A stretch of 21,068 bases of DNA from a virus. This document shows, piece by piece, positions 4,705-18,994 of the stretch. A model generated the notes under the pieces. The model was not told where the DNA came from. It did not search any database and was given only the letters and a program-made list of their open reading frames with translations. Each line of letters begins with the position of its first letter. Positions within the stretch are counted from its first letter, which is position 1. The position numbers and the translations under genes are program-made. Location: IMG/VR virus record IMGVR_UViG_3300021963_000778, positions 1-21,068 of that record, one strand, 5' to 3'.

Positions 4705-5646
4705 ATGGCAATTAAATTCAATCGCTCCCAGACTTTTGCCACCAACGGCACGGTGACTGCCGCCGGGTTGCACAACCTGATTGACGGCACGGACATCTAT
4801 CAGGCGTTGATCACTGACCAGACCAACCTTACTTCGGTTGGCTCCGGCGACGAGCTATTAATTGCCGATGCGGATTTAACCGCAAATGACGCGCCTCGCG
4901 CCGTTACGGTAAACGAGTTGTTTGAGGATGCGTTGACGATCAGCACCTACACCAACGCCAATATCAATAACATTTCCTACGGCACATCCACCGGCACTCG
5001 GCTTGTTTCCACCAATGCCTCAATCACTACCGGAACGATCCCGAGCCTTACCTCCAGCACGGCCAGCATCACTATTGGGACTATCCCGAATCTAACCGCA
5101 GGAACCACAACTTCGACTGCCGCCAACATCACCAACGGAACGATCCAGACGCTTACTTCAAGCACGGCCACGATTACGGGTGGAACATTCAGCGGATCGG
5201 TAAATAGCACGGTCGGAACAATTGGCAATTTCACAACCACGTTATCGGGCGATGTTACGATTAGCACAGGGACAGCAACTGTCGGCACCCGTGTAGCCGT
5301 GGTCAACACGGCTCAACAATATACCAGAGCACATAATTTTGCGGCTACTGCGCTGACCATTACCAGCGGAACCGTTCCCTGGGATCTGTCACAAAACCAA
5401 GTTGCAACTATTTCCGTCAATACAACCACAACCATGAATACGCCAACAAATCCGCAGGCTGGCGCAACCTATGTGCTAATCGTAACGCAAAGCGGTGGAA
5501 ATAATACTCTGTCTTTTAGTACGGCTTACAAGTTCACAGGTGGTAATGTTCCAGTTCTTTCAACTGGCGCATCTCAGGTTGATGTTCTTTCCTTTGTAAC
5601 AAACGGAACTGTACTCTACGGAGTATCTAGCCAGAACTTCTCGTAA
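4705..5646 (+). CDS. Second Thr/Gly repeat fibre or spike protein
   Basis: This encodes 313 residues. I chose ATG 4705 (MAIKFNRSQTF), two bases after the preceding stop, over the TTG at 4693. Residues ~1-85 form a non-repetitive head (HNLIDGTDIYQALITD, ADLTANDAPRAVTVNELFED) that resembles attachment domains of phage fibres. The centre has about four degenerate 15-19-residue repeats of the form TASITxGTIxxLTSS, a likely beta-structured shaft. The last ~100 residues hold AVVNTAQQYTRAHNFAATAL and a VATISVNTTTTMNTPTNPQ segment, a fold often seen at fibre tips. It is a neighbour and likely partner of the gene at 3825. Confidence 0.75.
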   Translation: MAIKFNRSQTFATNGTVTAAGLHNLIDGTDIYQALITDQTNLTSVGSGDELLIADADLTANDAPRAVTVNELFEDALTISTYTNANINNISYGTSTGTRLVSTNASITTGTIPSLTSSTASITIGTIPNLTAGTTTSTAANITNGTIQTLTSSTATITGGTFSGSVNSTVGTIGNFTTTLSGDVTISTGTATVGTRVAVVNTAQQYTRAHNFAATALTITSGTVPWDLSQNQVATISVNTTTTMNTPTNPQAGATYVLIVTQSGGNNTLSFSTAYKFTGGNVPVLSTGASQVDVLSFVTNGTVLYGVSSQNFS

Positions 5647-5652
5647 CCTACA

Positions 5653-8007
5653 ATGCCTTGGCCTGTCCATCCAAACGGCCTGCTTGGAGCGCAAGGCGAT
5701 AATGACTCCTACCGAGTTGAACGTAGCCTGCGGTTTAATTCGGCGGATTCTGCGTATTTGAATTGGACTGCGGCAAGCGCAACAAATCAGCAAGTAGTTA
5801 CTCTAAGTTTTTGGGTAAAGAGGAGCGCACTTGGAAGCCGACAGGCATTATTTTCATGGGCAGGAGTCTCAACTGGAAATAATCATTCCGTTGAATTTAC
5901 GGCATCAGATACAATAAATATCTATTCGGTTGGGACTGCGGCATCGCTAAACCTAAATTCAAGCCAAGTATTTAGAGATCCAAGCTCTTGGTATCATATT
6001 ATTTTCTCCGTTGATACAACTCAGGCAACTGCGTCAAACAGATTGCGTCTTTATGTGAATGGAGTGGAGGTAACATCATTCGGAACAGCAACATACCCAT
6101 CTCAAAACGCAAGCCTACAAATAAATTCAGCAAATGCGATAAACATAGGAAGAAGGGTTGATAATACGGGTGCTGGAATTTTCAACGGCTACCTCACCGA
6201 AATTAACTTCATTGACGGCCAAGCCCTAACCCCATCCAGCTTCGGCGAAACCGATGCCATCACAGGCCGCTGGAAGGCTAAGGCGTACAGTGGGACGTAT
6301 GGAACGAATGGGTTTTATCTGAAGTTTGCCGACAACAGCGGAACGACTGCAACAACGCTTGGGAAAGACTCAAGCTCAAACGGCAACAACTGGACTCCGA
6401 ATAACTTCTCCGTCACCGCAGGCGCAGACAACGACAGCCTTGTGGACAGCCCGACGAATTATGGTTCGGATACTGGATTAGGTGGTGAGGTGAGGGGGAA
6501 TTATGCAACGCTGAACTCAATCGCAGGAGGCGCATCCACACTGGTTGACGGGAATCTAAGACCATCCACGGACGGTATTCGTTTATCCACAATCGGAATG
6601 TCGTCAGGCAAGTGGTATGCCGAAATGAATGTGATTGCGGTTGGAACACAATCCGATTTTGGAATACATACTGGAACAGGATTTAATACCTACGTTGGAA
6701 GTACGTCATCTGGATATAGCTATAATAGTGATGGCAAAAAATACAATAACCTTACTGGTTCTGCCTATGGAGCAACCTACACGACCGGAGATGTAATTGG
6801 ATGTGCGTTTGATGCTGATGCTGGAACTATTGTTTTCTATAAAAATGGGGTTTCTCAAGGAACGGCATTTACTGGGCTAACAAGCGCACCATATTTCTTT
6901 GGCATTTACGGAAGGAGTTCGGCAACCGCAAACAATGTCTATATAAACTTCGGCCAACGCCCCTTTGCCTACGCCGCCCCTTCCGGCTTCAAGGCTCTCT
7001 GCACCCAGAACCTACCGCAACCGACAATCCAGAAGCCTAGCAAGTATATGGATGCCTTGGCCTACACCGGCACCGGCGCATCCAATGCCATCTCCAGCCT
7101 TAGCTTCAGCCCGGATCTGGTGTGGATTAAGAATCGTGGGACGACGACAAGCCACGCCATTTACGATACGACCAGAGTAGCGCAGTCACAGCTTTCCAGC
7201 GACACAACCGGGGATCAGGTCACAAGCTCAAGCGGTCTTACTTCATTCGATGCTAACGGTTTTACCATCGGAAATAGCACGCTAGTCAATACCAGCGGGA
7301 CGCAATATGTTGCATGGAGTTGGGATGAATCGGTTCAGGCCGGTATGGATATTGTGAGCTACACCGGCAACGGAGCTAATCGCACAATCTCGCACAATCT
7401 TGGCGTTGCTCCCAAAATGATTATTGTCAAGGCTCGCACCACGGCAGGGGCGGATCAGGGTTGGCCGGTATGGCATACGTCTATTGCCAATACCACATAC
7501 CTGACGTTAAACACAACTTCTGCTACCGCTACGGGTACAGATTACTGGAACTCCACCAGCCCAACATCCAGCGTCTTCTCGGTTGGAGCAAATGCAGCGG
7601 TTAATGCAAATAACGACACATATATCTCTTACCTGTTTTCCGAAATCGAAGGCTACTCCAAGTTCGGAAGCTACACCGGAAACGGATCAGCAGACGGGCC
7701 GTTTGTGTGGTGCGGGTTTAGGCCGAGGTGGTTGATGATTAAGAGGGCAGATACTCCGGCAGTTCTTACTGGATGGGGTATTAGCGATGCCGCAAGAAGC
7801 GATTCAAATGTTGTTTCTCTTGGATTTGCAGCAGATCAAAATCTTGCAGAGTTTTCTGGAAGCTCAACAACTGCATCTCCATACTTGGATTATTTATCAA
7901 ATGGATTTAAGTCAAGAAACACTGGAGGAGGTCAAAACGCATCTGGTGTTACTTACATCTTCGCCGCCTTTGCCGAATCACCTTTCAAATACGCCAGAGC
8001 AAGATAG
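5653..8007 (+). CDS. Large modular adhesin: LamG + SPRY + three DUF7483-like repeats
   Basis: This encodes 784 residues. Residues ~24-192 are a concanavalin A/LamG-type lectin domain (SLRFNSADSAYLNWT, VVTLSFWVKRS, WYHIIFSVDTT, RLRLYVNGVEVTSFG, GYLTEINFIDGQAL). Residues ~300-440 look like a SPRY/B30.2 domain (SSGKWYAEMNV, DVIGCAFDADAGTIVFYKNG, NNVYINFGQRPFAY). From ~470 there are three repeats of about 100 residues starting YTGTGASNAI, YTGNGANRTI and YTGNGSADGP. Each contains a PDLVWIK/PKMIIVK/RWLMIK strand, as in the DUF7483 phage family. The protein probably binds cell-surface glycans or proteins as a receptor-binding adhesin. DNA of the LamG and SPRY domains and of part of the last repeat is A/T-rich, while linkers are G/C-rich, suggesting module exchange. 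Confidence 0.85.
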   Translation: MPWPVHPNGLLGAQGDNDSYRVERSLRFNSADSAYLNWTAASATNQQVVTLSFWVKRSALGSRQALFSWAGVSTGNNHSVEFTASDTINIYSVGTAASLNLNSSQVFRDPSSWYHIIFSVDTTQATASNRLRLYVNGVEVTSFGTATYPSQNASLQINSANAINIGRRVDNTGAGIFNGYLTEINFIDGQALTPSSFGETDAITGRWKAKAYSGTYGTNGFYLKFADNSGTTATTLGKDSSSNGNNWTPNNFSVTAGADNDSLVDSPTNYGSDTGLGGEVRGNYATLNSIAGGASTLVDGNLRPSTDGIRLSTIGMSSGKWYAEMNVIAVGTQSDFGIHTGTGFNTYVGSTSSGYSYNSDGKKYNNLTGSAYGATYTTGDVIGCAFDADAGTIVFYKNGVSQGTAFTGLTSAPYFFGIYGRSSATANNVYINFGQRPFAYAAPSGFKALCTQNLPQPTIQKPSKYMDALAYTGTGASNAISSLSFSPDLVWIKNRGTTTSHAIYDTTRVAQSQLSSDTTGDQVTSSSGLTSFDANGFTIGNSTLVNTSGTQYVAWSWDESVQAGMDIVSYTGNGANRTISHNLGVAPKMIIVKARTTAGADQGWPVWHTSIANTTYLTLNTTSATATGTDYWNSTSPTSSVFSVGANAAVNANNDTYISYLFSEIEGYSKFGSYTGNGSADGPFVWCGFRPRWLMIKRADTPAVLTGWGISDAARSDSNVVSLGFAADQNLAEFSGSSTTASPYLDYLSNGFKSRNTGGGQNASGVTYIFAAFAESPFKYARAR

Positions 8008-8015
8008 GAGACCAT

Positions 8016-8279
8016 ATGTGGATCACATCAACCAATAACATCATCCGCCAACCCCAAGGCATCCGCATTGAAGATGTCAACCATCCGGCCAGCATCTTCT
8101 GGTGCTGGAGCAAGGAACAACTTGCCCAGATCGGGGTCAAGCCCTACCACCCGGCCAGCGTACCCGCTGGCGAAAGGGTCACAGGCGCGTATACTGAGGA
8201 GGTGGATGGCGAGGTGTACGAGCGTTTCAACACCGAGCCTATTCCGCAACCCGAGGAGCCAGTAAATGACCCTGTCTGA
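8016..8279 (+). CDS. Small accessory protein after the adhesin
   Basis: This encodes 87 residues with AGGAG six bases before ATG 8016. The sequence contains FWCWSKEQLAQIGVKPYHP followed by GERVTGAYTEEVDGEVYER and an acidic Pro-rich end (IPQPEEPVNDP). I remember this general pattern ('W-s-x-e-x-L-x-x-I-G-x-x-P-y ... v-d-G-x-v-y') from small proteins placed after tail fibres in phages, where an assembly role is suspected. No enzyme motif is visible. The last 14 bases overlap the next gene. Confidence 0.75.
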   Translation: MWITSTNNIIRQPQGIRIEDVNHPASIFWCWSKEQLAQIGVKPYHPASVPAGERVTGAYTEEVDGEVYERFNTEPIPQPEEPVNDPV

Positions 8280-8964
8280 AATAGCCCAATACGCCGGTGA
8301 GAAGGTCGGCAAGACCGACTCCGAAACGCTGACATTCCTCCAGAAAGCCGCAAGCTTGGCTTACCGCCGGGTCTGGAACTTTGCCCCTTGGCGCGAGACT
8401 GTCACCAGTTCCACCTACTCGGTCGGAACCAACCGCACCATCACCCTTGGAACCAACGTGGAGACCCCGCTCTCCGTATCCTATGACCAATCCGAAGTTG
8501 AACCCATCGACCTTGCCACCATCATCAGCCAAGACGCTGATCTGCTCGAAGACACCCGCACGGGTACTCCGGTGCTGTATCACTTTACTGGCCGCAATAC
8601 GAGCGGAGTTGCACAGCTTGATCTGTATCCGCGATTGGAAACTGCTGGGACGATAAGTCTGCGGGTGGTGGAGAAGCTGAAATGCCTTACCAGGACAAAC
8701 ATTATCGTTGATTTCCCGCCAACCACGCAGGCGTTGGATGACGAGCTTCGCCTACCCCACGTTCACCAGGTTGTGCTTTCGCTTACCCACGCCGATGCCT
8801 TGGAGCGTGAACGGCAATACGCCAAGGCGCAGTCAGTCGTTCAGACCGCCAATGCCGACCTTGCGGCGATGGCCAACTACGAACTGAGCCAGGTGGGCGG
8901 GATCAAGCAGATTACTCCGTCCAGCTTGGGCGACCTCACCACCGAAGAAATTACCGCCTCCTAA
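8266..8964 (+). CDS. Head-tail adaptor / tail tubular-like protein
   Basis: This encodes 232 residues starting at ATG 8266 inside the preceding gene, with GAGGAG upstream. The N-terminal helices (LSEIAQYAGEKVGKTDSET, FLQKAASLAYRRVWNFAPW) are typical of adaptor proteins that sit under the portal. A beta domain (PLSVSYDQSEVEPIDLATI, AQLDLYPRLETAGTISLRVV) follows. Next is a characteristic helical hairpin (LRLPHVHQVVLSLTHADALE, then RQYAKAQSVVQTANADLAAM), the signature of P22 gp4/T7 gp11-like phage adaptors. The protein should join portal and tail. Its stop overlaps the hub gene as TAATG. Confidence 0.7.
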   Translation: MTLSEIAQYAGEKVGKTDSETLTFLQKAASLAYRRVWNFAPWRETVTSSTYSVGTNRTITLGTNVETPLSVSYDQSEVEPIDLATIISQDADLLEDTRTGTPVLYHFTGRNTSGVAQLDLYPRLETAGTISLRVVEKLKCLTRTNIIVDFPPTTQALDDELRLPHVHQVVLSLTHADALERERQYAKAQSVVQTANADLAAMANYELSQVGGIKQITPSSLGDLTTEEITAS

Positions 8965-11269: not shown

Positions 11270-11730
11270 TGGGCGGCGGACCATCCATCCCGGCACCCCC
11301 TCCTCCTCCCGACCCCCTAAAGGCGGCGCAGGCCAACGATCTTTTCTATCGCTCATCCTTGGAAACCTACATCCAGAAGCAACCCGATGTGGCTGCGCTT
11401 GAGCAGAGGCTTCGCGAGAAGTATATGCCACGCCAGCGCGAACTGGAACGCCAGATGTCAGCCATCGACCTTCAGCGTTCCGCCCAAGCACAGCTTCAGG
11501 TTGAGCGCGAACTAGGTCCGCAGCGTTCCCTAGAGGCTATGCGCCGCCAGTTTGAGATGTCCCCGGAAGCCTTTGCCACACAGCGTGCGCTTGGACAGCA
11601 AGCCGCCACTCAGTTTGCCCGTATTTACGGATCTTCACCGATGGGCGCGGTTCCCGCTGAAGTCCAGCAATCAGCAGGCGTTCAGCCGGTGGATTATCTG
11701 ACGGGATTACCAAGAACAGGGATTGTTTAA
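11269..11730 (+). CDS. Putative internal virion/ejection protein (small)
   Basis: This encodes 153 residues starting at the TAATG overlap. It opens with MGGGPSIPAPPPPPDP, a Gly/Pro-rich leader frequently found in phage internal or tail-core proteins. A long charged helix follows (LEQRLREKYMPRQRELERQ, then MSAIDLQRSAQAQLQVEREL). The C-terminal part is Gln/Ala-rich (RALGQQAATQFARIYGSSP). The position before two further helical proteins and the 1184-residue protein supports a role in the internal core. No enzymatic motif is seen. Confidence 0.75.
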   Translation: MGGGPSIPAPPPPPDPLKAAQANDLFYRSSLETYIQKQPDVAALEQRLREKYMPRQRELERQMSAIDLQRSAQAQLQVERELGPQRSLEAMRRQFEMSPEAFATQRALGQQAATQFARIYGSSPMGAVPAEVQQSAGVQPVDYLTGLPRTGIV

Positions 11731-11731
11731 T

Positions 11732-13603
11732 ATGGCAGCAAAAACCAAGCCGCTTCCAGCCGATGTCGTAACCAGACAACAGCAATATGCTGATCTTGGC
11801 CTTGCCAATGCCACCAGCTACACGACCGCAAATGCGCTTGATGCGGCTCTTGTAAAGGAAGTTTACAAACTTGATCCTGCAAAATACACCGGCAAGAAGG
11901 GTGTTGTTAATGTTGCCGGAGCAAAGGCTGAATACGACTTCCAGCAGCCCAAGCTTTCCAAGCCAGCAACCGACCCAACCAGCTTTACGCAGGCCGTAAA
12001 CAATTACGCCAATGCAATCAGGACGTTGCAGACGATTGGTGCCGACAATGTAAACAAGACCGATCTTGCCACGCTCAATTCTGCCGCTAGGTCGGTGCGT
12101 GATTTTGATTCCAAGGATCTGAGCGAAAACGCCAAGCTTATCATTTCCAATGTCGGAGACGCCGTTGATGCCATCAATTCCATCAACAACCAAAGACAGG
12201 CTATTGAAAGAAAGCAGAACCTTATACGCGGATTGGATGAGAATGGTGCCCCATTGCCAAAGGGCCAAAAGGTTGATGCCAAGGCCGAAAGGGCAAAGCT
12301 AACCGTTCTTCAGGACGAATATCAACGCATTGTCAACACGGCAAACCAGACCGCTCCAAAGCTTGAGGAATCGCTTGCCCGTTTTGGGCTTTCCGACATT
12401 TCCAGAGGAATTGGCGCACCTGTTGCTGGAGCGGCCAAGGTTGACACTGGACTTGCCGCGTTACGCGGAGAGCAGGTGTTTGGAACGGGCGCACTTCAGG
12501 GCCGTCTCAATATAAACGTCACCGACGATCAGATTCTTGGTGACATCAATACCGCCCGCCGCAACGAGTACAAAAGTCTTTACGACATCGGAACTGCCGC
12601 CGTCACCGACCTGCAAAGCCAGCTTTCCACGGCAAACGCATTCTTGGCGGATCTTCCCGCTGGTGATCGCCGCAGGGTTGAGGCACAGAAGACAGTTGAT
12701 AATCTAAACAAGCAGTTGTCCGAGGCACAGGCCGACACGCTGGAAGCGCGGAATCTTTACGAGAACTACCAGCCCGTCAGCGGCACGCAGGCCCAGACCG
12801 CCATCTCCTCATTCCGCGAATCTCTTCGCCTGCCGGAAGAGCGCACGCTTCAGCAGATCGAAACCATCGACCCAGAAATGGGTCGCACGGTGCGTGCGCT
12901 ATCAAGCCAGTATGGCCAGATGGCGGCCCAGCCTATCGGGCCAACCACCACTCCGCAGACCGAAGAACTTCGTCAGACCATCGAGCAGGAGGCATTAAAC
13001 CAGCTTCGCCTTGGCTCGACCATTGGGGCCGAGGAACGGCGTGGGTACGAGCAGGCCATCCGTGCCGCGCAGACCGCCCGTGGTAACATTGCTGGCCTTG
13101 GCCCGGCGGTGCAAGAAGCGGCTTCAATCGGTGCCGCCGGGGAACAACGCAAGCTTGCGCGTTACGGGGCGGCGACTCAATTCCTTGGATCAGGCGAAAC
13201 CACCGGAGCGGCCCTGGCGCGGGATCTTGGATTTAGAAACGCGCTGGAGCAATCGCGCTTGGGTGCAGCCGCAGGATTTGTGGCTGGCGGTCCGAGTATG
13301 TACAACCTGGCCTCCCAAAGGCTTGGCCAGCAACAGGCGGCACTTGGCCAGTATCTTGCCGCAGCCCAGCCACAGCAAACCACCGGCTTCCAAGCCACGC
13401 CATCGCAGTTCAATCCGTATTCCTACGTCAACCCTAATGCAGGGTTCATCGGGGCGCAGAATGCGGCGCAGATTTACAATACGCTTGCGGATTACCAGTC
13501 CTCAACTTATGGAGCGCAAATTGGAGCAATTTCTAGGCAGCCAAGCGGTGCTGAACAATTTGGTCAAATTGCAACTGGACTCAGCAATTTAATCAAGATA
13601 TAA
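11732..13603 (+). CDS. Large coiled-coil internal virion protein
   Basis: This encodes 623 residues from ATG 11732, two bases after the preceding stop; the TTG at 11723 is less likely. The protein is largely helical and Ala/Gln/Glu-rich with long coiled-coil stretches (for example VTDLQSQLSTANAFLADLPA and AQKTVDNLNKQLSEAQADTL). Its C-terminal ~60 residues hold NPYSYVNPNAGFIGAQNAAQ and YGAQIGAISRQPSGAEQFGQ. I recognise this ending from internal or core proteins of podovirus-like marine and environmental phages. It probably assembles inside the capsid around the portal and leaves with the DNA. The next gene follows after eight bases with AAGGAG. Confidence 0.75.
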   Translation: MAAKTKPLPADVVTRQQQYADLGLANATSYTTANALDAALVKEVYKLDPAKYTGKKGVVNVAGAKAEYDFQQPKLSKPATDPTSFTQAVNNYANAIRTLQTIGADNVNKTDLATLNSAARSVRDFDSKDLSENAKLIISNVGDAVDAINSINNQRQAIERKQNLIRGLDENGAPLPKGQKVDAKAERAKLTVLQDEYQRIVNTANQTAPKLEESLARFGLSDISRGIGAPVAGAAKVDTGLAALRGEQVFGTGALQGRLNINVTDDQILGDINTARRNEYKSLYDIGTAAVTDLQSQLSTANAFLADLPAGDRRRVEAQKTVDNLNKQLSEAQADTLEARNLYENYQPVSGTQAQTAISSFRESLRLPEERTLQQIETIDPEMGRTVRALSSQYGQMAAQPIGPTTTPQTEELRQTIEQEALNQLRLGSTIGAEERRGYEQAIRAAQTARGNIAGLGPAVQEAASIGAAGEQRKLARYGAATQFLGSGETTGAALARDLGFRNALEQSRLGAAAGFVAGGPSMYNLASQRLGQQQAALGQYLAAAQPQQTTGFQATPSQFNPYSYVNPNAGFIGAQNAAQIYNTLADYQSSTYGAQIGAISRQPSGAEQFGQIATGLSNLIKI

Positions 13604-13611
13604 GGAGATTT

Positions 13612-14298
13612 ATGGCAGTATTTGATTTACCAGCAATGATGGAGATGTTCAGACAAGATGAACTCCAGAAACAGGCGTTGGCAGAGGCTCAAAGAAAACA
13701 GGCCATGGAAGAACAACCCGATGTTGATTTTACATTTGAAAAAGGCGGTCTCAAGGTTAAGGGCAAACTGAAGGATCTTCCTCGACTAAGCCAAGACCCT
13801 GCGCTATCCCCATATCTTCAGGGAATTGGCAACACTCTTACAAACGAGCAGGCTTTGGATAACGAGGAAATTCAGGTTCAGCGCGAAGAACTTAATGATC
13901 GTCTTCGCAAAATTGCCTCAGACAAAATGAAGCAGGAGCTTGAGATCGCCAAGGGCGATACCCGCGCCTTCCGCGCCGAGCTTGGGCTTGGTGCCTTGGG
14001 CTTGAGAAAAAGATCCGACATTATGAAGGAACTTGAGGCCGAGCGCGGAGTGGTTCAAGGAAAGCTTGCAGAGCTATCTTTCGACCGTCAGGCTGGACAA
14101 ATGGCGCAACCCGCAATGGAAGAGGTTGAGGCTGGCGCACCTATCGCCCCCGCCACGCAGCCGGTTCAGCCAGCGCAGGCTGTTGCAGAAACCGTGCCTT
14201 CCTTTAATTCCGCAGCCGAAGCGCGTGCGGCTGGCGTAAAGCCTGGTCAGACGGTAATCATCAAGGGTCAAAGAGGTACGCTTCAGCCGAAGCGATAA
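13612..14298 (+). CDS. Putative internal virion protein with C-terminal small beta domain
   Basis: This encodes 228 residues with AAGGAG upstream of ATG 13612. The first two thirds are helical and charged (MMEMFRQDELQKQALAEAQR, EEIQVQREELNDRLRKIAS). Then comes a Pro/Ala/Gln-rich linker (APIAPATQPVQPAQAVAE). The last ~35 residues (FNSAAEARAAGVKPGQTVII, KGQRGTLQP) match a small domain often found at the end of phage internal proteins ('f-s-s-a-e-A-x-a-a-G-x-k-x-G-d-x-V-x-v-x-G'). The domain probably binds a partner or DNA. It lies between two larger internal proteins, and I infer it is co-packaged. Confidence 0.75.
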   Translation: MAVFDLPAMMEMFRQDELQKQALAEAQRKQAMEEQPDVDFTFEKGGLKVKGKLKDLPRLSQDPALSPYLQGIGNTLTNEQALDNEEIQVQREELNDRLRKIASDKMKQELEIAKGDTRAFRAELGLGALGLRKRSDIMKELEAERGVVQGKLAELSFDRQAGQMAQPAMEEVEAGAPIAPATQPVQPAQAVAETVPSFNSAAEARAAGVKPGQTVIIKGQRGTLQPKR

Positions 14299-14301
14299 GT
14301 C

Positions 14302-17300
14302 ATGGCCAGGGGCTTGAGGCAACCGGCCAGTGAGCCTGAACTTGAGTTCGTTCCAGAACAGGAACAGGATCTTGAATTTGTACCCGAAGCACAGGACGGC
14401 AATCTAACCAAGGCCCAATACATCGCATCCGGCGGTAAGCCGGAGGCTGTGATTTCCCCTGAGCGCGAGGCAGTGCTTCGCGCAGAAACCCAAAGACAGC
14501 TTCAGGCTGGCGCAACACCCGAACAGGCCGCACAGGCAGCGGGTGAGGCGGTTGACGCAATGGGTGCAATCAAAAGACCTGACGGCACTATTGCCGAAGG
14601 ATTCAAGCCAACCGAACAGGCACTGGCCGAAGGCATTATTGAAAAACCTGCCATACCAGCCGTAAGGGAGGCGCAAAAGCTTGGCATCGAAACCGTGTCG
14701 TCAGGCACCGACAAAGATACGGGCGGTGGATTTGCTATCGGCAAAGACAAGAATGGTAAACTTGTCCGCATCGAATCATCGCCGCAGGGTGAGATTGATG
14801 TGTTCGAGATTGAGGAGCAGCCGTCCATGCTTGGCGCAATCGGAAGGACGCTGGCACGGGAGGTTCTGCCGACTACGGCTGGCGGGGCAGCCGCAAGGGC
14901 AGGATTTGCGTTAACACCTGGGCCTCTACCGGCAAGGATTGCGGGTGGACTTGTGGCTGGCACGGCGGCATACCTTGGAGCAGAGAAGGCGCAGAGAGCG
15001 GCTCTTGGCGCGGCTCTTGGGCCGGAACGAATCGCAAGGGTTGAAGAAGTTTTACAGAAAGACATTGAGCAGTATCCTATTGCCACAACCGCAGCCTCAA
15101 TTCTGACACCAACACTTGGGGGTGTCGCAGGATTGGCAAAACCGGCCATTCAGGCATTTCGTGGTGCTGGAGCAAAAGCAGTCACGGAGGCGGCAGAGGC
15201 AGTTCCTGCCGCAGTTGTAAGGCCAGCCGCAGAGGTGGCGCAGGCCGCACCTGCGGCGGTTGAGGCTGCGCCTGCCGTTGCAGAAGCGGCGGCAAAACAG
15301 CCGCCAATAAAGCTTCCAGAAGAAACCGCGCAGACGGGAGTTAGGGCTGTCGGTAAGAGGTTAGTAAAAGACCCGTTGCTTGATCGCGGAGTACGCGAGA
15401 GATTGGCGCAGAGCGAAGATATTCAGTACGGCAAGTTCAAGCGCAAGGCTTTTGAAGAGGCAATGGCAAGTGCCGGAATTGAGGATGTTCAAAGACTTGC
15501 AGATACAGGCACAGCACCTCAAAAAGTTGTTGCAAAAGCAGAATTAATAGCAAGAGCATCAAAGGGAAGCGTTGCCGAATTAGAGTCCGCAGTAAATCGA
15601 GTGCTTAGAGAAGCAAACGCTACCGAGGCCGGTCAAATTGCCGAAGCAACAAAATCACTTAGAAGCACAACGTCTCAAGGATATTTTTACACACTTGTTG
15701 GGGCATTGCAAAAATCAAACCGAATGCTTACGGATGACTTGCTTGCACAAGGTAGAAAGCTTTTCGCCGTCAAGACACGGCTGCAAACAAGGTTTGACGA
15801 ACTTGCAAACAAGGCAAGGCAGACACTGGATGATGCCGATATTCTAAAGGCGACAAGGGCGGAAAAAGTTTTGCAGGAAAGTTTGTTTAGGTTGCAGAAT
15901 TTTGAAAGCAGGCTTATCCCAAAGAAGTTTTTTGGCGAAACCCTGCCGACCGTAATTCAGGGAAATCTTCTTGCCCCTCTTTCCATTGCAACAAACTTGT
16001 GGAGCAATGCGGTCAGCGCATTGCCTCGCATACTTACAAGACAGGGAGCTTTTGTCAGCCAGGAAGTAACCAGAGCATTCCAAGGTCTTTTCGGTGCAAA
16101 GCTTGGACCAAGGCAAATATCCTCTCCAATATCATTGGCTGGAACCAGAAGGATTGGGGAAAGCCTTAAAGCATTGGGGCGCGGTATGGCTGAAGGAGTG
16201 GTTGGCTTGCGCCGTGGTATCAGTGCGGAAGGATTGCTGGCAGGTGAGAGGATTCGAGGATTTCAACCCATCCAGGCATTTAAGCAGTTCTGGACCGGGG
16301 CCGGATTGGCCAAGCCTGTGCAGACAGGATGGAAGGGTCTTGGCGCAAACATACTTGACCGGGCAAGACTTGCCGCAGAGGCATCTTTGGGCGCACCGCC
16401 AGAAACAATGTTGCGCTTGCTTCAACTTGGTGATACTCCGTTCAGGCGCATGGCGCAAGCCAGACTTCTTTCCGAGTCGGCACAGCTTGTAGGAAAGACA
16501 GGCAAGGCAGTGTCAGTTGCCACAAGACTTCCGACCGGAAGAGAACTTGCCAAGATTGAGGAAGAGGCAGCACAGGCCGTGTTCCAGCAAGATACGCCGT
16601 TAGCTAGGGCAGCCCTTAGTGCGGCAAATATGTTCGGACTTGGAACAAAGTTTGGTCCGGCAAGGCTTATCGGAAAAACAATCATTCCTTACGCCAAGAC
16701 TCCGGCCAACGTCATTGACGAAATGTTGGACTATTCGCTTCCTGGGTATGCAATGGTATTTAAGGGAATACCGGCAATGAAAGCTGGCAACACCAGGGAA
16801 GCACAGCTTGCCATCGGAAAGACCATTACAAGTTTAACTATCGGAGCCGTGGCTAAGACCCTTTCAGATGCTGGTGTTATTGGTGGAAGAGCGGAGGAAA
16901 CTGAGAAGGCAAGAGACATTCAGTATAAGGCATTGCCACCCAGAACCATTAACATCAGCGCACTGAATAGAATGGCAGAGGGTGAGTCAACCGAACTTCA
17001 GCCGGGAGACAGGGTAATTAACCTTGAGAAGCTTGGCATTGTTGGCGGAATGATTGCCACCTGGGATGCCGCAAGCAAGGCAACCGAGGGTGGTGATTTT
17101 ATCAGCCCAGAATTTGTGACCGCCTTAGTGCCTGAAACGCTTTCTTTTGCCATGAATCAAAGTTTTCTTAAGGGTACAAACAGCCTGCTTTCCGCCATGC
17201 TGGATGGGCAAGGCACGACAATGGACAACTGGATTGCCAACTATTTTGGAACTGTGTCATCCATTCCATTCCCAAATACGCTTTCAGCAGTATCAAGGGC

Positions 17301-17856
17301 CATGCGGGAATCCCTACCGGACAAGATCCAGGTAAAGGACATTCAGGGTGAGTTTCCGGAAAGCACATTGAATTTGTTTGGAGAAGTTCTCAAAAGAAGG
17401 CTACCGGGTGCAGATGAGGATTTGCCGAGAAGGATAGACGTTTGGGGCAGGGAAATTCCACAGACACCAGAAGGTGCAGATCCTGTTGCATACAACTTCC
17501 TTGATGTTACCAAAGGTCGCAACGCAACCTACGACCCGATCACTATTGAGATATACAGACTGTTCAAGGAAACCGAAGATGGCGATGTCATCCCGCCCAA
17601 GCCGCAAAGAAACTTCACAATCGACAATGTGAAATACAGGCTTTCGCCGGAGCTTTACGAGGAGTATTCCAAAGTGCGTGGTCGGGCCAACCGCAGGGCT
17701 GCCGAAGAGCTTTTTAGAAGCAAGGAGTTCAGGTCGCTAACAAAGGAGGAAAAGGTTGTGGCTATCCGCAATGCTTACGCCCAAGTAGGTGACGATGCCA
17801 GAATCCAGTTCCTGCAAAAGAACAGGCGTAGGATTATGAGAGGAGAGAAACAATGA
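14302..17856 (+). CDS. Large internal/polyvalent virion protein with LPD38-like region
   Basis: This encodes 1184 residues, the largest gene here, in the size range of the T7 gp16 ejection protein. Near the N-terminus are two copies of LEFVPE (residues 14-19 and 24-29). Small-residue hydrophobic stretches follow at ~190-240 and ~258-285 (PLPARIAGGLVAGTAAYLGA), then an Ala/Pro-rich linker at ~290-335. A long helical region fills most of the rest. Around residues 775-870 the sequence (FGPARLIGKTIIPYAKTPAN, then LTIGAVAKTLSDAGVIGG) resembles large polyvalent protein-associated domain LPD38. Polyvalent proteins are thought to be delivered into the host with phage or plasmid DNA. No catalytic domain is obvious. 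The final ATGA overlaps the muramidase gene, so the two are coupled. Confidence 0.75.
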   Translation: MARGLRQPASEPELEFVPEQEQDLEFVPEAQDGNLTKAQYIASGGKPEAVISPEREAVLRAETQRQLQAGATPEQAAQAAGEAVDAMGAIKRPDGTIAEGFKPTEQALAEGIIEKPAIPAVREAQKLGIETVSSGTDKDTGGGFAIGKDKNGKLVRIESSPQGEIDVFEIEEQPSMLGAIGRTLAREVLPTTAGGAAARAGFALTPGPLPARIAGGLVAGTAAYLGAEKAQRAALGAALGPERIARVEEVLQKDIEQYPIATTAASILTPTLGGVAGLAKPAIQAFRGAGAKAVTEAAEAVPAAVVRPAAEVAQAAPAAVEAAPAVAEAAAKQPPIKLPEETAQTGVRAVGKRLVKDPLLDRGVRERLAQSEDIQYGKFKRKAFEEAMASAGIEDVQRLADTGTAPQKVVAKAELIARASKGSVAELESAVNRVLREANATEAGQIAEATKSLRSTTSQGYFYTLVGALQKSNRMLTDDLLAQGRKLFAVKTRLQTRFDELANKARQTLDDADILKATRAEKVLQESLFRLQNFESRLIPKKFFGETLPTVIQGNLLAPLSIATNLWSNAVSALPRILTRQGAFVSQEVTRAFQGLFGAKLGPRQISSPISLAGTRRIGESLKALGRGMAEGVVGLRRGISAEGLLAGERIRGFQPIQAFKQFWTGAGLAKPVQTGWKGLGANILDRARLAAEASLGAPPETMLRLLQLGDTPFRRMAQARLLSESAQLVGKTGKAVSVATRLPTGRELAKIEEEAAQAVFQQDTPLARAALSAANMFGLGTKFGPARLIGKTIIPYAKTPANVIDEMLDYSLPGYAMVFKGIPAMKAGNTREAQLAIGKTITSLTIGAVAKTLSDAGVIGGRAEETEKARDIQYKALPPRTINISALNRMAEGESTELQPGDRVINLEKLGIVGGMIATWDAASKATEGGDFISPEFVTALVPETLSFAMNQSFLKGTNSLLSAMLDGQGTTMDNWIANYFGTVSSIPFPNTLSAVSRAMRESLPDKIQVKDIQGEFPESTLNLFGEVLKRRLPGADEDLPRRIDVWGREIPQTPEGADPVAYNFLDVTKGRNATYDPITIEIYRLFKETEDGDVIPPKPQRNFTIDNVKYRLSPELYEEYSKVRGRANRRAAEELFRSKEFRSLTKEEKVVAIRNAYAQVGDDARIQFLQKNRRRIMRGEKQ

Positions 17857-18623
17857 AGTTTAGTGTAAACGCATCCTCCAGCCGAGAACTTCGCAATGAC
17901 ATGGTTTCCAGAGAGCTTACCGGATCTCCATACACAGCCGTTCCAGAAGAGATAAGGCGTAGTTATCCCATCGAAACAAAGGCAAAGGAGCAGCCCATAA
18001 GGCAGGAACAGGTTGTGGCAGAACCTGAATTTGAATTTGTACCGGAGAAAACATCCATGACAACCCAACCATCACAAGACCCGCTTCAGCTTGCAGCCCT
18101 CAAGACGGTTGATTTTGAATCGAGGAAAGACAAACAGGGAAATCTTCAGGTCTACAAATTGCCAGCCGGTGACATGGGTGGTAACTTTGAGGTGGCCGGA
18201 ATCAACGACCGTTATCATCCTGAAGCCTTCAAAAGAATCTCGTTGCTCCCGGCGCAGGAAAGAGCGGGAGCAGCAGCGCAATATATCAAAGAATACACAT
18301 CCCCGCTCGTCTCAAAACTGCCCAACGCCATCCAGCCATTCGCGCAGGATCTCGCGTTTAATCGAGGGATGGGCGGCGCAACGAAGTATATCCAGCAAGG
18401 ATTAAACTCGCTTGGCGTGAATGTGTCCGTGGATGGCAGGCTTGGGCCGCAAACCATGGCTGCCATTAACAAGGTTCAGCCACAAGCCTTGATGCGTGCC
18501 GCCAGCGATGCACAGCTTCGGGATGAATATAGAATGGCCAACAGAAACCCGGCCAGAAAACCACTTCTGCGCGGGCTTGAGAACAGGATAAGGAATAGGT
18601 TGGCTATTCTTGGCTCTGCCTAG
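17853..18623 (+). CDS. GH108-type muramidase with virion-protein N-terminus
   Basis: This encodes 256 residues from ATG 17853. An N-terminal extension of ~75 residues contains EPEFEFVPE (57-65), nearly identical to the tag in the preceding internal protein. Residues ~85-250 follow the glycosyl hydrolase 108 / phage N-acetylmuramidase layout. DFES at 87-90 puts Glu89 at the place of the catalytic Glu of the EGG motif. This is followed by AGDMGGNFEVAGINDRYHP, FAQDLAFNRGMGGATKYIQQ, VDGRLGPQTMAAIN (peptidoglycan-binding-3-like) and a C-terminal LLRGLENRIRNRL. The predicted role is cutting the glycan strands of peptidoglycan. Shared tag and gene overlap argue for virion-carried lysozyme aiding DNA entry, though an endolysin role is possible. 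Its stop is shared with the opposing gene at a CTAG. Confidence 0.8.
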   Translation: MKFSVNASSSRELRNDMVSRELTGSPYTAVPEEIRRSYPIETKAKEQPIRQEQVVAEPEFEFVPEKTSMTTQPSQDPLQLAALKTVDFESRKDKQGNLQVYKLPAGDMGGNFEVAGINDRYHPEAFKRISLLPAQERAGAAAQYIKEYTSPLVSKLPNAIQPFAQDLAFNRGMGGATKYIQQGLNSLGVNVSVDGRLGPQTMAAINKVQPQALMRAASDAQLRDEYRMANRNPARKPLLRGLENRIRNRLAILGSA

Positions 18624-18967
18624 TCTTTGTCTTTTGATGATCCGACAAAGACAGCACCCTTATTCATATAGGCAGATCCTGCCTTTATGGTAGCAGATGT
18701 GCCATAAAAAAAGTTTCCAGATTTTGATATAAATGTTCCGTCTTTGCCAACAAAGCTTTTGCCAGATTTGTAATAAAATCCATCAGTTGAAATTATTGAT
18801 CTGCCAGATGAGGATGAGTACACCATTCCGCCATCCTCTGATATTACGCAACCTCTGCCGGACGAAAATCCGTTCTTTTTGATGACAGCACCAGCAAAGT
18901 CATCGGAGTCATCCTCCCCCATCACCGGTGCCACCAGCACCGCCATTAGGAATAGTATTGCTTTCAT
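18620..18967 (-). CDS. Secreted small repeat protein, likely phage moron
   Basis: This encodes 115 residues and is the only clear minus-strand gene. The start at 18967 gives a textbook signal peptide: MKAILFLMAVLVAPVMG, with likely cleavage before EDDSDD. The reading frame stays open upstream to ~19357, but that part covers the opposing gene and looks non-coding. The mature part has about five short repeats of the form S-G-(R/K/N)-x-x-(hydrophobic)2-(S/G)-x-D-G (residues 36, 54, 68, 83, 96), suggesting a small beta-solenoid. There is a single Cys (40). No ribosome binding site is visible. The gene lies between late and replication modules, in opposite orientation and A/T-richer sequence, which is typical of a moron that alters the host envelope. 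I do not recognise the family. Confidence 0.65.
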   Translation of the reverse strand: MKAILFLMAVLVAPVMGEDDSDDFAGAVIKKNGFSSGRGCVISEDGGMVYSSSSGRSIISTDGFYYKSGKSFVGKDGTFISKSGNFFYGTSATIKAGSAYMNKGAVFVGSSKDKD

Positions 18968-18994
18968 GCGTAAAAAGTATAATGAGTTGGCGTG
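18968..18994. promoter_or_regulatory. Compact divergent promoter region
   Basis: This A/T-rich 27-base gap separates two divergent genes. On the + strand a perfect TATAAT lies at 18978-18983. The predicted transcription start (about seven bases on) would fall at or next to the GTG/ATG start of the rightward gene. No good -35 is seen at 16-18 bases. On the - strand, TATACT (18981-18976) has a TTGACC (19002-18997) 15 bases upstream, and its start would fall at or next to the ATG at 18967. Both genes lack a good ribosome binding site, so leaderless or near-leaderless transcripts are likely. Confidence 0.45.

Follow-up and report, generated by a model that had tools for sequence, protein, structure and literature searches.

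A short peptide tag occurs in matched variants in a large, putatively ejected protein and the neighbouring predicted muramidase of uncultured phages

Results

The window analysed in this study is the whole of the IMG/VR virus record IMGVR_UViG_3300021963_000778 (positions 1 to 21,068), and the locus of interest comprises three consecutive genes on its plus strand. They encode a 228-aa protein (13612 to 14298), to which no function is assigned and which has no match in PHROG or Pfam, a large protein of 1184 aa (14302 to 17856), and a predicted muramidase of 256 aa (17853 to 18623) with an N-terminal extension of about 75 residues. The muramidase matches a PHROG family annotated as endolysin (E 1e-10) and the Pfam family PG_binding_3 (E 2.7e-9; 37.5 bits against a cutoff of 24.6), by which its product is predicted to be a peptidoglycan hydrolase; a match to a GH108-like PDB entry is weak (E 0.5). 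Only three distant matches to it were found in GenBank phages. Within residues 1 to 35, a stretch of the form KFxVxxSSSRxLRxxMxxREL is partly conserved.

The large protein of the window has no Pfam or PHROG match, and sequence and fold searches against the PDB gave nothing significant. Because it has no relative in GenBank phages or in the bacterial and archaeal genome collection, the phages concerned are regarded as an uncultured group. Its AlphaFold2 (AF2) model is poor (pTM 0.28), and a Foldseek search with this low-confidence model against viral models yielded 11 matches at E 1e-3 or better, two of them to named polyvalent proteins: a "large polyvalent protein-associated domain 3" protein (E 9e-10) and a "PolyVal ADP-ribosyltransferase" (E 2e-9). 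The large protein of one relative, L195, contains an insert resembling ART-PolyVal, with a score (23.6 bits) below the Pfam cutoff of 31.2. Judged by these fold matches, the large protein looks like a phage protein of the polyvalent or ejection type. The ADP-ribosyltransferase-like insert corresponds to residues 326 to 446 of the L195 protein (4908 to 8804 of that locus), and the large proteins of L195 and the longer ones of L133, L134 and L031 carry extra domains inserted after a Gly-rich segment.

Three copies of a short tag lie on the plus strand. Tag 1, EPELEFVPE (14332 to 14358), forms residues 11-19 of the large protein, tag 2, LEFVPE (14371 to 14388), forms residues 24-29 of the same protein, and the muramidase tag, EPEFEFVPE (18021 to 18047), forms residues 57-65 of the 256-aa reading frame. 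These copies and their residue positions, first described in an initial annotation, were confirmed from the translations. A pattern search of both strands found DNA encoding EFVPE at exactly three places in the record, all of them tag copies, and the reversed pattern gave no match on either strand. The closest pair of 9-mers from the large protein and the muramidase is identical at 8 of 9 residues, a value equalled in 3 of 2000 block-shuffle trials. The codons differ between the copies as had been reported (gttccagaa, gtacccgaa, gtaccggag), and the DNA of the copies agrees at just 12 of 18 bases in the window and at 13-14 of 18 in four relatives; the likeness is therefore one at the protein level, and the earlier view that it does not stem from a recent DNA duplication stands.

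Tags 1 and 2 sit in the disordered N-terminus of the large protein (residues 1-51, tags included, have pLDDT <50 in the AF2 model), and the muramidase tag sits in a linker preceding the catalytic domain. The initial annotation had placed two copies in the large protein, both N-terminal; these are real, but a related third copy, site 3 (VFEIEE, plus strand, 14800 to 14817, residues 167-172), ends a small four-stranded beta domain predicted at residues 130-169. It overlaps the last strand of this domain, and a strand at residues 165-169 is present in two AF2 models.

IMG/VR was scanned for relatives, which yielded 80 loci with the muramidase as query, 61 with the large protein, and further loci with other queries. 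In addition to the large protein and the muramidase, the relatives encode terminase, portal, scaffold, capsid protein and tail genes, and genes for products of about 125 aa, 150-180 aa, 480-820 aa and 228 aa. The motif proposed at the outset, EPE[LF]EFVPE, is conserved, but its exact spelling is local, and the relatives share the looser form [LFY]-[DE]-[FVI]-[VI]-[PE]-E. Among the reading frames of 156 fetched loci, many of which are near-copies of one another, a relaxed form of the motif occurs 143 times in the forward proteins against 6 times in the reversed ones. In fragments of about 11 records, the largest of 41.7 kb, it is nearly confined to the large protein and the muramidase, the other matches being at the start of a 122-157-aa gene, which untagged phages possess as well, and one elsewhere. 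An upstream gene of 122-129 aa whose product starts with a [VI]EYIE-like sequence was set aside as a candidate, since untagged phages have it too. The exact spellings were also rejected as a general phage code: scans of viral contigs with EFEFVPE, PGYEIIE and YEIVEEP found matches outside the group within proteins unrelated to these two, one example lying near residue 600 of a protein of 770-786 aa.

Matched tag variants in the large protein and the muramidase were seen in at least three lineages. In lineage A, the type of the window, the large protein begins MARGLRQPA[SN]EP[ED]LEFVPE..LEFVPE and the muramidase tag reads [FL]EF[VI]PE. In lineage B, the N-terminus of the large protein is mostly MAI[EG]PELEFVPEQEQDLEFAPL, tag 2 is LEFAPL or LEFVPL, site 3 is FELEPE and the muramidase tag is [LF][DE]F[IV]EE; matching is inexact here, the muramidase having EE instead of PE alongside an unchanged LEFVPE as tag 1 of the large protein. 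In lineage C (L064, L068 and L200), the large protein carries LPGY[ED]VIEP near its N-terminus and LPGYDVIEE at about residue 160, and the muramidases of the three different phages carry LPGYEIIE[G/E]. BLOSUM scores of the lineage C muramidase tags are 35-39 against the tags of their own large proteins and 9-16 against A or B tags; lineage A tags score 33-39 against A and 5-16 against C. Within the cassette of up to five genes, the muramidase linker matches the N-terminus of the large protein, or its site 3, best in lineages A and C; in lineage B this region ranks first or second.

These spellings bear on a reading in which the tags imitate the last strand of the beta domain, so that strand addition or exchange would dock the muramidase on the large protein itself and no third protein would take part. 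Site 3 overlaps the last predicted strand, and in lineage C it (LPGYDVIEE) is nearly identical to the N-terminal tag (LPGYEVIE) and the muramidase tag (LPGYEIIE); in lineages A and B, however, site 3 (VFEIEE, FELEPE) is only loosely tag-like, and the structure models are of low confidence. We consider such mimicry unlikely.

A further reading is that a head-maturation protease trims the large protein and the muramidase at the motif, as in T4 and giant phages. The maturation-protease sites of some phages resemble short acidic motifs with a final E, and internal proteins are typical substrates of these enzymes. However, no protease family was recognised by Pfam among the 23 ORFs of the 41.7-kb relative, the scaffold and capsid genes adjoin with no protease gene between them, the last position of the tag is often P or G in lineage C, and two copies ten residues apart would be redundant. 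This reading has a very slim chance of being correct.

Among 46 distinct tagged muramidases, the tag is written in 24 ways at the DNA level but in 10 at the peptide level. Mean pairwise identity reaches 0.66 within the tag, compared with 0.33 over the preceding 12 residues and 0.57 over the eight that follow. In 41 large proteins, LEFVPE of tag 1 has one amino-acid version and seven DNA versions. The tags might instead have no common binding partner and represent an acidic flexible linker that was copied between neighbouring genes and retained by descent. Both tags do lie in flexible sequence of biased composition, their genes are neighbours, and composition alone matches fairly well (null maximum of 36 against 39 observed in the window). 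That the tag is kept while the linker upstream of it diverges, that its type shifts in both genes together and that an identity of 8/9 is rare in shuffles all speak against this account, which we regard as improbable.

We then compared 73 distinct muramidases with genomic context, 44 of which neighbour a member of the tagged large-protein family and 23 an unrelated large protein; in the remaining 6 the neighbour is cut. The tag is present in 44/44 of the first set and in 0/23 of the second. Loss of the motif in close relatives, which the initial annotation had named as an outcome that would count against it, was not seen, as both genes are tagged wherever this large protein is present; muramidases of sister phages with a different large protein, by contrast, are without the tag. 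The catalytic domain of the untagged muramidases is still clearly related, and no alternative tag common to the muramidase and its neighbours was found in the untagged phages. The partly conserved stretch in muramidase residues 1-35 extends to untagged muramidases, and a second, more universal signal may therefore precede the tag.

The unrelated large proteins occupy the same slot in the same gene order and measure 1360-1630 aa, 708 aa or 692 aa. A profile comparison found no similarity between the tagged and untagged large-protein families. The replacement protein found in most of the untagged phages has relatives among Cellulophaga phage proteins annotated as virion structural, and it is also related to a PHROG with this annotation. 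Together with the polyvalent-type matches of the large protein, this lends support, short of proof, to the idea that a protein packaged in the head and ejected is encoded in this slot. Two unrelated large proteins in this slot (L084, 4662-6788; L100, 4917-6995) begin with GIVEFPDD and GIGKIEIPDG, which are possibly a second class of N-terminal address.

Similarity of the portal (88-94%), scaffold (75-87%) and capsid protein (92-96%) is about equal with or without the tag. The untagged genome G016, for example, matches lineage A at 88% in the portal, 80% in the scaffold and 92% in the capsid protein, and lineage B is about equally close. Presence of the tag thus goes with the type of large protein and not with the phage backbone, which is about equally similar in tagged and untagged phages. 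In a tree of the catalytic domain, the tagged and untagged groups part essentially once, so the counts do not represent many independent events; the large-protein and muramidase genes are adjacent and may pass on as one block, which adds to this non-independence. With only three or four lineages, the co-variation likewise rests on few independent events. Two candidate recombinants parting the tag from the catalytic domain were rejected by window-by-window identity: in L150 a D-type tract lies only inside the catalytic domain, and L241 is intermediate, so that neither gives a clean test.

The gene for the 228-aa protein is exchanged together with the large protein. Untagged phages lack it. In lineage C the 228-aa product shows 24% identity or is undetected, against 55% identity for the large protein and 96% for the capsid protein. 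In the window and in 42/42 tagged relatives compared, exactly one codon lies, in frame, between its stop codon and the ATG of the large protein; in untagged phages the spacing before the large-protein gene differs. Joint folding of the 228-aa protein with the N-terminus of the large protein (TAA read through, table 6) gave a pTM of 0.25 and no usable interface.

Discussion

The motif itself, its conservation, its matched variants and its absence where the large protein differs are the observations to be explained, and a docking or sorting motif common to both proteins would be expected to diversify in parallel in the two, as the tag does. We give an even chance to the explanation that a short docking motif brings two separately encoded proteins to one site in the virion core. 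The tag would be an extended, acidic-hydrophobic, beta-strand-like linear motif carried on flexible segments of two late gene products: the tail at the N-terminus of the large protein and the linker of the muramidase. Through it, both proteins would bind the same surface during head assembly, and the muramidase would be packaged, and probably ejected, along with the large protein. All relatives are uncultured, and the location of the muramidase in the virion is a prediction from the genes. The initial annotation had already favoured a docking or sorting function; that view gains from the tag being conserved at the protein level, limited to these two proteins and diversified in both together, but EPE[LF]EFVPE is not the general form of the motif.

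The bound surface would most likely belong to a protein whose gene is swapped along with that of the large protein. The 228-aa protein and the large protein are the best receptor candidates because only they co-vary with the tag, while the portal, scaffold and capsid protein do not; the receptor may thus be the 228-aa product, or else the small beta domain within the large protein, with its tag-like last strand.

In a different role for the same contact, the tag would keep the muramidase tethered in the cytoplasm to the large protein or to a partner of that protein, delaying lysis until heads are assembled. No second lysis enzyme was recognised by Pfam among the 23 ORFs of the 41.7-kb relative, so the muramidase could also be a plain endolysin, a point that weighs against the docking explanation; its gene is the last of the late cassette, and endolysin is its PHROG annotation. 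By itself, however, such a control of lysis leaves the two tags of the large protein unexplained, and we think it quite improbable.

Returning to the docking motif, cargo selection into the heads of short-tailed phages is poorly known; signals have been shown in T4 and P1, and regions in P22. Internal proteins of T4 share a capsid targeting sequence (PMC3012670). As in T4, a short conserved peptide is found here on otherwise unrelated proteins, addressed to the core in T4 and predicted to be head cargo here; the comparison is one of arrangement and claims no sequence similarity. Unlike the T4 sequence, one copy lies in an internal linker (residue 57), repeats are present and no maturation protease was recognised. 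In P1, 30 N-terminal residues of DarB suffice to direct a reporter to the capsid, and 9 are too few (PMC9024508). The tags described here likewise lie in the N-terminal tail of a very large protein, for which head packaging is predicted; P1, however, offers an experiment with one protein, whereas here a prediction concerns two proteins with matched spelling. Compared with a targeting sequence of the T4 or P1 type, the tag is shared between proteins, all tagged relatives having it in both genes; as to N-terminal placement, it occupies residues 11-29 of the large protein but a non-terminal position in the muramidase.

The ejection proteins gp7, gp16 and gp20 of P22 are recruited by the scaffold, and N-terminal parts of gp7 and gp20 are held responsible for incorporation via the scaffold (PMC8402733). 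The present phages resemble P22 in being short-tailed and in the predicted involvement of N-terminal parts. In P22 the scaffold is needed, whereas the scaffold here is about 80% identical in tagged and untagged phages and is therefore not the co-varying partner. For polyvalent proteins, lysozyme domains have been proposed to help breach peptidoglycan on entry (PMC5512222). The large protein matches this class by fold, in a low-confidence model, and a relative has the ADP-ribosyltransferase-like insert; unlike in polyvalent proteins, the muramidase is a separate gene product bearing the same tag, not a fused domain. By analogy, the tag may work like the T4, P1 and P22 signals, and we do not class it as a member of the capsid targeting sequences.

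A more far-reaching proposal, which we put forward tentatively and hold to be doubtful on balance, is that the tag is part of an exchangeable address code, in which tag type and cognate receptor, either the 228-aa protein or the beta domain, evolve and swap as one cassette and the muramidase must match the resident ejection protein. If true, such a code would be a cargo-loading barcode, attaching enzymes to the ejection complex with no need to fuse genes. A signal legible in the sequence and varying jointly in two proteins of one phage would allow cargo to be predicted from genomes, it points to a small, testable receptor in the 228-aa protein, and it could serve to load reporter enzymes into the heads of such phages.

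Two flanking genes are also variable. The gene at 11723 to 13603 in the window, upstream of the 228-aa gene, belongs to the 480-820-aa kind; its N-terminus differs in nearly every relative, its C-terminal part is more conserved, and its types do not track the tag. On the minus strand, at about 18620 to 18985, a gene convergent with that of the muramidase encodes a small protein that starts like a signal peptide (MKAILFLMAVLVAPVMGEDD...) and contains Gly-rich repeats; tagged and untagged relatives have a comparable gene at this position, with strongly variable sequence.
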